Source of the DNA: Zwartia hollandica
GTDB taxonomy: Bacteria > Pseudomonadota > Gammaproteobacteria > Burkholderiales > Burkholderiaceae_B
Direction: 5' to 3'
Assembly (NCBI RefSeq): GCF_019923725.1
Contig: NZ_JAHXRI010000006.1
Location: forward strand, 124,001-188,000
Length of the DNA stretch: 64,000 nt
Part shown: piece after piece, positions 3,272 through 63,910 of the stretch
How positions within the stretch are numbered: position 1 is the first letter of the stretch
Layout: each line of letters starts with the position of its first letter
Position numbers and translations under genes: made by a program
Notes under the pieces: generated by a model
Told to the model about the DNA's origin: nothing
Database searches by the model: none
Seen by the model: only the letters and a program-made list of their open reading frames with translations

Positions 3272-3450
3272 GTTGGTGCTTTCGATGCAAAGACCCTATT
3301 GCCACAAGCAAATTGGTCGCATTGGGAAAGTTAAACGGGAAACAGGGAAATACGTCTTTTTTGACGGTTGTGCCTGTGCTGCCCCCGCAACGGTCAATCT
3401 TGGACACCTCGCTTTTTGTTCAAGGCCAGCCCGATACCGGCCACCTCAAG
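3272..3450 (+). promoter_or_regulatory. Cobalamin (AdoCbl) riboswitch upstream of btuB
   Basis: The segment has the layout of a B12-sensing aptamer. There is a 5' GGTGCTTTCGATGCAAAG-type start at about 3274, a GGGAAA...CGGGAAACAGGG region at 3324-3347, the highly conserved GCTGCCCCCGCAACGG at 3378-3393, and a B12-box-like GCCAGCCCGATACCGGCC at 3425-3442. Two small hairpins follow before the btuB start (TCGGA/TCCGA at 3460-3475; CGTGCG/CGCACG at 3496-3511). The second lies only about 8 bases before the ribosome-binding GAGG, so control of translation initiation is the likely mode (inference). A weak promoter may sit at about 3240-3266. Boundaries are by eye. Confidence 0.9.
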
Positions 3451-3495
3451 CGGAAATTTTCGGACTTATCTCCGAGATTTCTTTTACGGATTGGT

Positions 3496-29312: not shown

Positions 29313-29337
29313 AACGCCTCGCGTTGACCTCCAGCAA

Positions 29338-29375
29338 ACCCACGCCCGCCAACCCTCTGGCGGGCGTGGGTTTTT
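29338..29375 (+). terminator. Intrinsic terminator after hpf
   Basis: ACCCACGCCCGCC (29338-29350), an eight-base loop and GGCGGGCGTGGGT (29359-29371) form a perfect 13-bp stem that runs into five T. It isolates hpf from ptsN, which therefore needs its own promoter. Confidence 0.93.
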
Positions 29376-60231: not shown

Positions 60232-60933
60232 CTAACTACGCGAGCCGAAGATTGCAGAGCCAACTCGAACCTCCGTTGAGCCTTCTTCAATCGCAATTTC
60301 AAAATCGCCGCTCATACCCATCGATAAGCGTTCGAGCGATACGCCCGCAATAGCCTCTTCGCGCGCACGCGCTTGCAACTGCTTGAGTTGCGCGAAGCAG
60401 GCGCGAACCGCTTGCGTATCTTCAGATAGTACGGCCATGGTCATCAGCCCCTGCACCCGCAACGTTTGGTAGTTCGCGAGCTGTCGCAAGAATGTGAATA
60501 GTTCTGAGGGCTCAAGTCCCGACTTAGTTTCTTCCGGTGAGGTTTTGACCTGCACCAATACATCAATGGCACGCCCCTCTTGCTGCAGCCGGCGGTCGAG
60601 CGCCTCGGCTAATTCGAGGCGGTCTAACGACTGGAGCTCATGCGCGAACTTTGCAACTTCTTTTGCTTTATTGGTTTGCAGCTGCCCGATCACCACCCAT
60701 TGCACATCGCAATCCCCGAGCAACGGTGCTTTTTGTGCGATTTCTTGTGTGCGGTTCTCGCCGAACCTCGTGAACCCTAAAGCGATCGCCTCACGAATCG
60801 CCGCCACATCAAACGTTTTGCTCACGGGCAAAAGCGTTACTTCCCTAGGATAACGCCCGGCGCGCGCGCAAGCTTGATCGATTCTGTTGCGAATCTGGGC
60901 GACTCGCTCGGCCATCGTGGTGTTGTTCAACAT
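60232..60933 (-). CDS. yggS: PLP homeostasis protein (YggS/PROSC)
   Basis: Binds pyridoxal phosphate and buffers it; it has no known catalytic activity. It has 233 residues from the ATG at 60933. The PLP lysine is in VTLLPVSKTFDVAAI; GFTRFGENRTQEI, WVVIGQLQTNKAKEVAKF, LQSLDRLELAEALDR, VLVQVKTSPEETKSGLEPSEL and LSMGMSGDFEIAIEEGSTEVRVGSAIFG are family-typical. A TTG at 60942 with a nearby AGGA is an alternative start, and an internal ATG at 60915 another. A 162-bp inverted-repeat element begins 54 bases upstream. Confidence 0.94.
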   Translation of the reverse strand: MLNNTTMAERVAQIRNRIDQACARAGRYPREVTLLPVSKTFDVAAIREAIALGFTRFGENRTQEIAQKAPLLGDCDVQWVVIGQLQTNKAKEVAKFAHELQSLDRLELAEALDRRLQQEGRAIDVLVQVKTSPEETKSGLEPSELFTFLRQLANYQTLRVQGLMTMAVLSEDTQAVRACFAQLKQLQARAREEAIAGVSLERLSMGMSGDFEIAIEEGSTEVRVGSAIFGSRS

Positions 60934-60987
60934 GGGGCTCAAGGTTCCTATCTAGGTAGGTATGTTACGACATCGTAATCGGTACGC

Positions 60988-61149
60988 TGACGGTGTGCTG
61001 GGCGGTGGGGCTCTGCCGCTGAGACATTGCGGCGAGCCGATCCGGTCGCTAAAGATGGCGCAGTGTCAGCTAGCGATCGGTGAGGGAAGTGGGCAACGCC
61101 CATCCGCAGCTGTCTCAGCGGCAGAGCCCCACCGCCCAGCACACCGTCA
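60988..61149. repeat. 162-bp element with 39-bp perfect inverted arms and structured interior
   Basis: Arms at 60988-61026 and 61111-61149 are exact reverse complements over 39 bases (TGACGGTGTGCTGGG... on the left). A TGCGG/CCGCA pair continues each arm after a small bulge. The 84-base interior has a 10-bp hairpin, CCGGTCGCTA (61042-61051) with TAGCGATCGG (61071-61080), with one G-U pair if RNA. A third hairpin is TGGGC-AAC-GCCCA (61090-61102). There is no coding sequence that I believe. It could be a miniature transposable element or a structured RNA. I see no clear target-site duplication. It is the only such element I noticed here; the rest of 60934-61323 has nothing else recognisable. 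Confidence 0.9.
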
Positions 61150-61323
61150 ACCAATCGCCCGCACGCCTTCCAAACATCCCCCATACAAAATCAGGACACC
61201 CCCACCCGCAACCCCGCATTCCCCTACAATACCGCTCACAAATTAGGCAGGCGCGAACCCCCGCCGCCGGCTTACCATTCAGCATTCAAAAACTCAACGC
61301 GAACCAAACCGCGAGGCAAGAAT

Positions 61324-62736
61324 ATGTGGGACGTAATCGTAGTAGGCGGTGGCAATGCTGCCTTGTGCAGCGCGCTCATGGCGCGTGAAGCTGGCGCCAG
61401 CGTATTGATTCTCGAGGCATCACCAAAAGAATGGCGCGGTGGAAATTCACAGCACACACGCAATTTGCGCTGCATGCACGACGGCCCCCAGGACGTCCTC
61501 GTCGACTCCTACCCTGAAGAAGAGTACTGGCAGGATCTACTCAAAGTCACCGGCGGCATCACCAACGAAAAACTAGCGCGCATGGTGATACGCGAATCCT
61601 CCAGCTGCCGCGACTGGATGCGTAAACACGGTGTGCGCTTTCAGGCCCCACTGTCGGGTACGCTGCACGTTGCTCGTACCAACGCGTTCTTTATGGGTGG
61701 TGGAAAGGCTCTGATCAACGCCTATTACCACAGCGCTGAAAAGCTTGGTATTGATATTCTGTATGACTCACCCGTCGACGATCTCGAGATCAAAGATGGC
61801 AAATTCATCGCAGCCAAAGTAGGAGACAAACGCTACCCTGGTAATGCCTGTGTGCTCGGCTGCGGCGGCTTTGAGTCCGACCGCGAATGGTTGCGCGAGG
61901 CCTGGGGCCAAAACGAGCGTGGCGAATGGCCCGCAGACAACTTCTTAATCCGTGGCACACGCTACAACATGGGCGTCGTCTTAAAGGTCATGATGCGCGC
62001 AGGCGCCGATACGATGGGTGATCCCACTCAAGCGCACTGCGTCGCCATCGATGCACGCTCCCCGTTATATGACGGTGGCATCTGCACCCGCATTGACTGT
62101 GTATCGCTGGGCATTGTTGTTAACCGTGAAGCGAAACGTTTCTACGACGAGGGCGAAGACTTTTGGCCCAAGCGTTATGCGCTGTGGGGGCGCCTCGTTG
62201 CCCTGCAGCCCGGGCAAATCGCTTACTCGATCATTGATGCAAAATCCGTGGGACGCTTCATGCCACCCGTGTTTACAGGCGTTCAGGCAGACACGCTGCC
62301 GGAGCTTGCCGCGAAGCTTGAACTGGATGTGGATACGTTTATGGAGACCGTGAACGCGTTCAATGCCTCTTGCCGCCAAGGCACGTTCGACCACAACATT
62401 CAAGACGACTGCTACACCGAGGGAATTACTCCCGCCAAAACGCACTGGGCACGTCCTATCGATACCGGGCCGTTTTTTGGCTATGCCGTGCGGCCGGGCG
62501 TGACCTTTACTTACTTCGGTCTCGCCACAGACGAAAAAGCTAGTATCTTTTTTGACGGTAAAGCAAGCCCCAATATGTATGCAGCTGGGGAAATCAACGC
62601 GGGCAACGTCTTGGGCAAGGGCTACACCGCCGGAGTGGGTATGTCGATCGGTACTGCCTTTGGTCGTATCGCCGGCACACAAGCTGCCGCAGCAGCAAAG
62701 AAAATAAAAGAAGGAGCGCAGCATGCAACCGCTTGA
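61324..62736 (+). CDS. tcuA: FAD-dependent tricarballylate dehydrogenase (TcuA-like)
   Basis: Oxidises tricarballylate to cis-aconitate in characterised relatives. It has 470 residues. The FAD fold is [29 protein letters not shown]. Fumarate-reductase-like parts include [53 protein letters not shown], a capping domain to about 380, and [33 protein letters not shown]. It overlaps tcuB by 14 bases. No TcuR regulator or TcuC transporter flanks it in the visible part. A related dicarboxylate or aconitate analogue is possible as substrate. Confidence 0.9.
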
Positions 62737-63910
62737 ATCCCTAACCCGCGAAGCACAAGACCTGGCCGGGAAAACTGAACACTCGATCTCGTGGCACAAA
62801 AAAGGCATCTCGGATAACGAAGCCGAAGTTGCCCGTCAAATGCAAATTTGCAACGCCTGCCGCTACTGCGAGGGCTTTTGCGCAGTGTTCCCCGCGATGG
62901 CACGCCGTCTGCAATTCGACAGCAAGGCTGACTTGAACTATCTGGCTAACCTCTGTCACAACTGTGGCGCTTGTCTGCATGCCTGTCAGTACGCACCACC
63001 CCATGAGTTCATGGTGAACGTACCCCAAGCGATGGCCAAAGTGCGGATGGAAACCTATACTGACTTTGCGTGGCCCGCTTCGCTAGGTAAGCTGTATAAA
63101 AATAACGGTCTGACAGTGTCGCTTGCAGCGGCCTTTGGTCTCGCGCTTTTTCTAGTGCTGACGGTCATGTCGACAGGCACGCTATTACATGAGCCGCTCG
63201 CTGGTAATTTCTACGCTATCTTCCCGCACAACACGCTCGTATTGATGTTCGGTTTTACGTTCGGTTTTGCAATTCTTGCCTTAGGGATCGGTGTCAAACG
63301 CTTCTGGAGTGAAATCACGCCAGGACAGGCGACCGGTGAAGCAATCGGCGAAGCTGCGCACAACGCGCTAAAACTGAAATATCTGGATGGCGGGCACGGC
63401 GACGGCTGTAACGATGAAGACGATCGCTTTACGCTGCGACGTAGGCGCTATCATCACCTGACGTTTTACGGCTTTATGTTGTGTTTTGCGTCGACCTCTG
63501 TCGCGACGCTTTATCACTACGCCTTCGGGTTACAGGCGCCCTACGCCTACACAAGCTTGCCAGTGATCCTAGGGACGGTGGGTGGCATCGGCCTGCTCAT
63601 TGGACCGGCTGGTCTGCTATGGCTCAATCTCAATCGCTCCGCTTTACACGGCGACGCCGCGCAAAAGCCAATGGATATTGGGTTTATATCGCTACTGTTT
63701 TTAACCAGCCTCACTGGTTTAGCGCTGTTGATTTGGCGTGACACCAGTGCCATGGCACTGTTACTGGCGATTCACTTAGGTATCGTCATGGCGCTCTTTT
63801 TGACCTTGCCCTATGGAAAGTTTGCACACGGCGTCTATAGAAGTGCTGCACTGCTGAAGTGGTCCATTGAAAAACGTATGCCCAATAAACTTTCACTCGG
63901 TTCAGACTGA
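62723..63910 (+). CDS. tcuB: TcuB-like Fe-S/membrane electron-transfer subunit
   Basis: Accepts electrons from TcuA and passes them to the quinone pool (family knowledge). It has 395 residues. Two 4Fe-4S sites are [11 protein letters not shown] and [12 protein letters not shown] near the N-terminus. Five to six membrane helices follow (for example [19 protein letters not shown] and [20 protein letters not shown]). A cytoplasmic loop near residue 215-245 is charged. Its stop overlaps the next ATG by one base (TGATG). Confidence 0.92.

Follow-up and report, generated by a model that had tools for sequence, protein, structure and literature searches.

Between yggS and tcuA, in the stretch of 64,000 nucleotides analysed here (the window), two 39-base arms face one another as exact reverse complements around a core of 84 bases. 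Long perfect stems such as this one are a puzzle for models that combine point mutation with selection. The locus raises the questions of what kind of element this is and how its arms stay matched.

The repeat and its genomic place

The features of the locus are given below. Gene names were assigned by NCBIfam on the proteins of the window and of a relative, G021.

60232..60942, minus strand: yggS, YggS family PLP-dependent enzyme; flanks the element on the left and is transcribed away from it (TIGR00044, 197 bits, cut-off 106)
60976..60988, no strand: putative left edge of the urtABCDE loss (homology to the G015 yggS-urtA spacer stops at 60976; the element starts at 60988)
60988..61026, plus strand: 5′ arm (P1), 39 nt, perfect complement of 61111-61149
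61027..61110, plus strand: element core with the motif strand on plus, 84 nt compared with 133 nt in the closest relatives (R1 covariance-model match, 54.4 bits, E 5.2e-8)
61042..61080, plus strand: inner helix P2 and remnant of the inner hairpin (predicted fold; alignment with relatives)
61066..61067, no strand: deletion junction; 49 nt present in G020 are missing here, between direct repeats of CAGCT (alignment)
61082..61103, plus strand: conserved side-hairpin motif GAGGGAAGTGGGC-AAC-GCCCAT, with P4 at 61089-61103 (motif search, fold, alignment)
61111..61149, plus strand: 3′ arm (P1′), pairing with 60988-61026 at 39/39 positions
61324..62736, plus strand: tcuA, tricarballylate dehydrogenase; flanks the element on the right and is transcribed away from it (NF006130, 746.8 bits, cut-off 369)
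62723..63910, plus strand: tcuB, next in the operon (NF011607, 686.3 bits, cut-off 524)

The first-pass annotation of this DNA had described two exact arms around a core with a 10-bp and a 5-bp hairpin. The arms are indeed fully complementary, making an inverted repeat of 162 bases in total. In the predicted fold the 10-pair helix is seen (P2, 61042-61051 with 61071-61080) and encloses a 4-pair helix, while the side hairpin (61089-61094 with 61098-61103) has six pairs, five Watson-Crick and one G-U. The arm helix extends a further six pairs inward (61027-61032 with 61104-61109). The region 60980-61160 has a folding energy of -133.9 kcal/mol, whereas its shuffled versions average -75.6 (z -13.4) and 0/200 of them do as well. 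Scanning for perfect arms of at least 12 bp with loops of at most 250 nt returned five inverted repeats in the window, and the next-longest arm after 39 bp is 16 bp. That second repeat (29336-29351 with 29358-29373, 6-nt loop) is terminator-sized.

The annotation had allowed for one arm being an assembly fold-back. This is excluded, since the repeat is also found at the corresponding site of two relatives, G020 and G042, with differences that match between the two arms. Compared with the 5′ arm of the window, the matched differences fall at 3 positions in G020 and at 2 in G042, the latter having one unmatched difference in addition.

The gene order around the element varies between relatives. 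In G021, G014, G022 and G011 it runs yggS, element, urtABCDE, one or two elements, tcuAB; G044 carries the same elements on a contig that stops before yggS. Close relatives keep urtABCDE, a five-gene urea-uptake operon, at the site of the window copy. In the window's own genome (G000), G042 and G020 the element lies directly between yggS and tcuAB. In G015 and G010 yggS adjoins urtA with no model match between them, and an element lies beyond urtE at the contig end; homology between the G015 yggS-urtA spacer and the window stops 12 bases short of the left arm. Presence of the operon was judged genome-wide by UrtA only. UrtA matches (E <= 1e-100) were found in 23/32 genus genomes and were absent from G000, G042 and G020, the last of which is only 65% complete. 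Because of this distribution among relatives we infer that urtABCDE was lost rather than gained, and that the window copy marks the loss. Two contigs of G002, to the extent that they show the arrangement, place tcuAB in inverted orientation with respect to urtABCDE and have elements close to the ends. That the elements border operons which have been lost or inverted (urt, tcu) suggests an influence on gene content.

Other features were noted in the same region. On the two G002 contigs (C106 and C132; L118 and L119) elements lie beside urtE and upstream of tcuA. Genus members without the hairpin element share another repeat, GTCCAGCGTAAGCG...CGCGTATTTTTTGCTCAGCACAAAAATACCGG..., which fills their urtE-tcuA spacer (L007, L008, L009, L212, L216, L218), and in G011 short tandem-like repeats, CCCTCCCCCTCAGATAGGCG..., lie between urtE and the element (L209, about 120-220).

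A dispersed family with a conserved core

Searches for further copies had been proposed both within the genome and among relatives. The genome of the window comprises 3.22 Mb in 25 contigs and is 99.7% complete; no second copy was found in it by DNA similarity (other matches are of 14-27 bases), motif or covariance model. Among related genomes, copies with conserved structure are present in many. Upstream of tcuA, Zwartia panacis (L010) and a related MAG (L006) hold other inverted repeats with different arms and a common motif, GAGGGAAGTGGGC-NNN-GCCCA. Allowing at most one mismatch, this motif occurs in 9/41 genomes, all of the same genus, and its reversed control in none. Twenty-three cores align well, with 21/37 predicted pairs changing on both sides in at least one copy, and a covariance model built from these cores matched 18/32 genus genomes (E <= 0.01).

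Wider sampling extended the family. The first covariance model matched 23/300 genomes sampled from the order, in 15/135 genera (E <= 0.001), and a second model matched 48/369 genomes of the class, in 38/272 genera. In a phylum sample the second model matched 15/398 genomes, all 15 within the same class, a result whose meaning is bounded by the share of genomes from other classes in that sample, which is not stated. E-values of the covariance models are rough, copy numbers are lower bounds since the large searches scored 8-11 candidates per genome, and the genus, order, class and phylum samples overlap, with the window's genome in all of them. The window repeat belongs to a dispersed, structured family of gammaproteobacteria.

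The family core is of about 133-150 nt and comprises a variable inner helix, an invariant module and a side hairpin. In an alignment of 70 copies from 49 loci, fitted to the covariance model, the module TGTYTGAG-[variable hairpin]-CGAGTT is common to all copies that reach it except the window copy, and most copies also carry GCCGAG and GAGGGNA. In the same alignment 34/37 pairs change on both sides and 92.9% of cells are paired. The covariation score is 0.599, compared with 0.140 for shuffled alignments and at most 0.074 for slid structures, and 0/500 shuffles reach any of the measures. Two forms of the element can be told apart: one has long copy-specific arms (the window copy, L157, L179 and L270), the other has short outer helices, after which comes a further A/T-rich hairpin. 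In copies from other families (L158-L185, L252-L263) the core is often followed by a hairpin, ACTTTCTTTGG-CGAAGC-AAAGAAAGT, apparently another module of the element.

The exact module, TGTCTGAG-N3-25-CGAGTT, gave 102 matches in 17/26 chosen genomes against 10 for the reversed control, although a match need not be an element in each case. Copies of the module range from few to about 19 per examined genome. The 19 matches of a single genome (G133, contigs C1 and C2) include many back-to-back pairs about 330-365 bp apart. Such strict conservation of a module, in an element that many families carry, calls for a binding partner. The window copy has been shortened by 49 nt between the CAGCT repeats, which removed this module, and the exact pattern has 0 matches in its genome. 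Since the invariant module is absent, the core function of the window copy has probably been lost.

We next consider whether the core behaves as RNA or as DNA. Across the helices of 120 copies, single mismatches on the motif strand were G-U in 62 cases and A-C in 15 (32 and 7 in the genus; 30 and 8 in the order and class together), and folding the complement strand reversed the proportion (13 and 64). These counts come from a fold that forbids G-U and accepts a mismatch only when it is flanked by three Watson-Crick pairs on each side. Counting on the model-fitted alignment instead gave 39 G-U and 35 A-C, that is no G-U preference, which disagrees; we place more trust in the former count because of the three flanking pairs that it needs on each side. 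Because tolerated mismatches on the motif strand are far more often G-U than A-C, the core appears to be selected as RNA of that strand. The motif strand also folds more stably in 99/117 copies against 16 (controls 112/233), a bias that is partly built in, as the motif itself fixes the strand. Against a cis-acting RNA, the element shows no preferred direction relative to co-directional neighbouring genes (25 same, 21 opposite), which would be unusual for one.

Copy-specific arms and flipped cores

Whereas the core is conserved, the arms are specific to each copy. Perfect enclosing arms of 13-69 bp were found in 23/26 distinct motif copies; of the exceptions, two are cut by contig ends and one (L120) is without long arms. 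In total 47 distinct arms of 13-69 bp were collected, amounting to 1409 bp. In G002, where six of at least 8 model matches were compared, the cores are 86-98% identical, yet the arms were no more alike than shuffled sequence in 14/15 pairs (lowest p about 0.09), one pair being related. Likewise in G016 the two copies compared have similar cores and unrelated arms (1/1 pair).

Arms at orthologous sites tend to change together. We made seven comparisons over three sites, scoring changes as double (matched on both arms) or other. Double and other changes numbered 3 and 0 for G000/G020, 2 and 1 for G000/G042, 1 and 1 for G020/G042, 5 and 2 for G014/G044, 7 and 1 for G009/G004, and 6 and 2 for G004/G019; G009/G019, at 0 and 2, runs against joint change. 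When each site is represented by a single independent pair (G000/G020, G014/G044, G009/G004), the totals are 15 double and 3 other changes. The annotation had read the exact match of the arms as recent duplication or selection for pairing. This was close: the joint change of orthologous arms fits template switching, pairing selection, or both.

Arms can also be replaced. At the yggS-urtA site the flanks align in G022, G014, G044, G021 and G011, but on both sides G044 has other arms than G022 and G014, and its arm sequence is present as unpaired flank in those two genomes. The alignment is consistent with two histories: in G044 the flank served to rewrite the right arm, or else in G022 and G014 the left arm underwent duplication and was matched anew. 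Among 29 arms checked against the loci examined, none had a copy standing unpaired at an empty site, and no pair of filled and empty sites was found.

At four orthologous sites the core lies in opposite directions between similar arms, as read by hand from strands and gene directions. At yggS-tcuA, G015 differs in this way from G000, G020 and G042; only the right half of G015 is visible, in which 35/39 arm bases match without mismatch. The other flips are between G014 and G044 at a second site, between G009 and G004 at a third, and between G011 and G021, G022, G014 and G044 at yggS-urtA. Moreover, the 5′ arms are skewed in base composition, with G exceeding C in 38/44 and T exceeding A in 38/42 of the arms that have a difference, whilst core stems are balanced; p-values for this skew are optimistic, as the orthologous arms among the 47 are not all independent. 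Long arms hold very few mismatches of any sort: the arm helices (runs of at least 15 bp, loops below 185 nt) contain nine G-U, three A-C and four others.

Monttinen and Loytynoja (2022; PMC8794818) propose that template switching in replication gives rise to perfect stems and repairs them, inverts loops and enriches G-C and U-A pairs, the excess of these pairs being ascribed to intra-strand switching. The hairpins described there lie in rRNA and microRNA genes (PMC8794818). They resemble the present elements in their perfect stems, multi-base matched changes, loop inversion and G-C/U-A excess in the 5′ arm, and differ in that here we see a dispersed bacterial family with arms of up to 69 bp. 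Because the proposed signs of template switching (perfect stems repaired, loops inverted, G-C/U-A excess) are all seen, we favour an RNA-like core combined with arm repair at the level of DNA.

The explanation that we consider most probable, with reasonable though by no means full confidence, is that the window repeat is a decayed copy of a dispersed RNA-like element, its arms renewed by template switching, and that urtABCDE was lost with one endpoint at the element. A replication fork would switch template at the hairpin, so that the nascent strand copies one arm and rebuilds the other; a switch between strands, or recombination between the arms, would flip the core; and selection would act on the core as a motif-strand RNA. 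With inverted copies paired next to the urt and tcu operons, this region may rearrange readily, and the ancestors of the window's genome would have lost the urt operon with one endpoint at the element. In this family, dozens of naturally occurring hairpins that share almost the same core but differ in their arms can be compared across related species, such that arm repair, arm replacement and core flipping are countable and testable against the template-switching model.

A bolder proposal, which we put forward tentatively, is that these are an undescribed class of dispersed RNA elements of Gammaproteobacteria in which a conserved RNA core with the TGTYTGAG/CGAGTT module acts as a fold-back primer, copying local DNA at each new site into long, perfect double-stranded arms of its own, flipping between them, and spreading within genomes via a trans-acting factor. 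If true, the element would generate its ends at the target site instead of bringing them with it.

It is doubtful, by comparison, that the element is simply a structured RNA kept by pairing selection alone, with every arm change compensated by selection and no special DNA mechanism. The covariation of the core, the excess of G-U over A-C on the motif strand and the greater stability of that strand (subject to the bias noted above) all accord with such an RNA, and pairing selection could also keep the arms matched. This upholds in part the suggestion of a structured RNA made by the first-pass annotation. However, the arms are nearly free of G-U, paralogous arms have no sequence in common, the window copy keeps its 39/39 arms although the invariant module is gone, and neither core flips nor a base skew confined to the arms would be expected.

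Mobile-element and regulatory alternatives

MITE-like repeats such as ERIC, Correia and RU are small mobile repeats that share their terminal repeats between copies. The present element is likewise short, non-coding, intergenic and hairpin-forming, with several copies per genome, and it could be a non-autonomous transposable element whose arms are terminal inverted repeats. We regard this as unlikely. Several nearly identical cores per genome would suit it, as would the arrangement of adjacent copies: of 28 pairs lying 60-700 bp apart, 23 are back to back (minus then plus), 1 is plus then minus and 4 are direct. In contrast to MITEs, however, the terminal repeats are not common to copies, and inspection of the flanks of the window copy revealed no target-site duplication. 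Moreover, the element is nearly absent from the mobile DNA searched, with 2/72,556 plasmid records for one query and 0 for another, 0/50,697 phages (one query) and 2 viral contigs for a strict pattern. Thus the mobile-element option raised at first pass is right as to dispersed related copies, but the arms are unlike transposon TIRs.

REPs are short (20-40 nt) palindromes with a GTAG or CGTC tag. The REP/REPIN (BIME)-RAYT system resembles the element in being dispersed, intergenic and palindromic, with adjacent copies in inverted pairs, and a GNAG tetranucleotide precedes the side hairpin of the element, much like the GTAG of REPs. This tag varies, however, between GAAG, GTAG and GGAG, and the core is of 84-150 nt with a conserved branched fold, as opposed to 20-40 nt, and has long copy-specific arms. 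The number of module copies per examined genome, few to about 19, also sets it apart. The Y1 transposase (PF01797) was considered as a mobiliser. It was found in 9/32 genus genomes, including 4/18 of those that bear the element (G009, G016, G019, G045), and had 0 matches in the window's genome; Y1/RAYT was rejected for this role, being missing from 14/18 element-bearing genus genomes.

A cruciform, terminator or barrier controlling yggS and tcuA, another of the options first put forward, is in our view quite improbable. The position between two divergent genes and the very stable hairpin speak for it. Yet the right flank of the window copy has no T-run after the hairpin, as a terminator should, and the spacer appears to be a deletion scar of the urt operon. 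Nor does the family favour such positions. The 89 classified copies are intergenic, 31 between convergent, 46 between co-directional and 12 between divergent genes, compared with 110, 275 and 98, respectively, among 483 neighbouring gene pairs without an element; divergent spacers are thus under-represented (12/89 against 98/483), with gene directions taken from a crude home-made gene caller. A further 32/121 copies were left out, being near an end or having no predicted gene on one side. Restricting the element-free pairs to the 69 with spacers of at least 150 bp gives 21 convergent, 18 co-directional and 30 divergent.

An assembly artefact or chance is scarcely credible, as independent assemblies show the same repeat with matched differences and chance is excluded by the shuffled-fold test and the window-wide inverted-repeat scan.

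Lastly, we sought earlier descriptions of the family. Keyword and sequence-string searches, whose coverage ended short of subscription papers and supplements, returned no published description of the element; of two papers containing a string, at least one is unrelated. Weinberg 2010 (PMC2864571) lists a candidate motif, 'Burkholderiales-1', as a doubtful RNA without an Rfam number. It comes from the same taxon as our element, and it is possible that this motif was an earlier sighting of part of the family. At the gathering score Rfam had no match to the element, whether the window was searched alone or with 7 and 12 loci of relatives; the best of the sub-threshold matches were to precursors of plant microRNAs (43.2 bits, where the cut-off is 150). 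The sole Rfam match in the window lies elsewhere, a cobalamin riboswitch (RF00174) at 3297-3459 on the plus strand, scoring 39.5 bits against a cut-off of 31.5.
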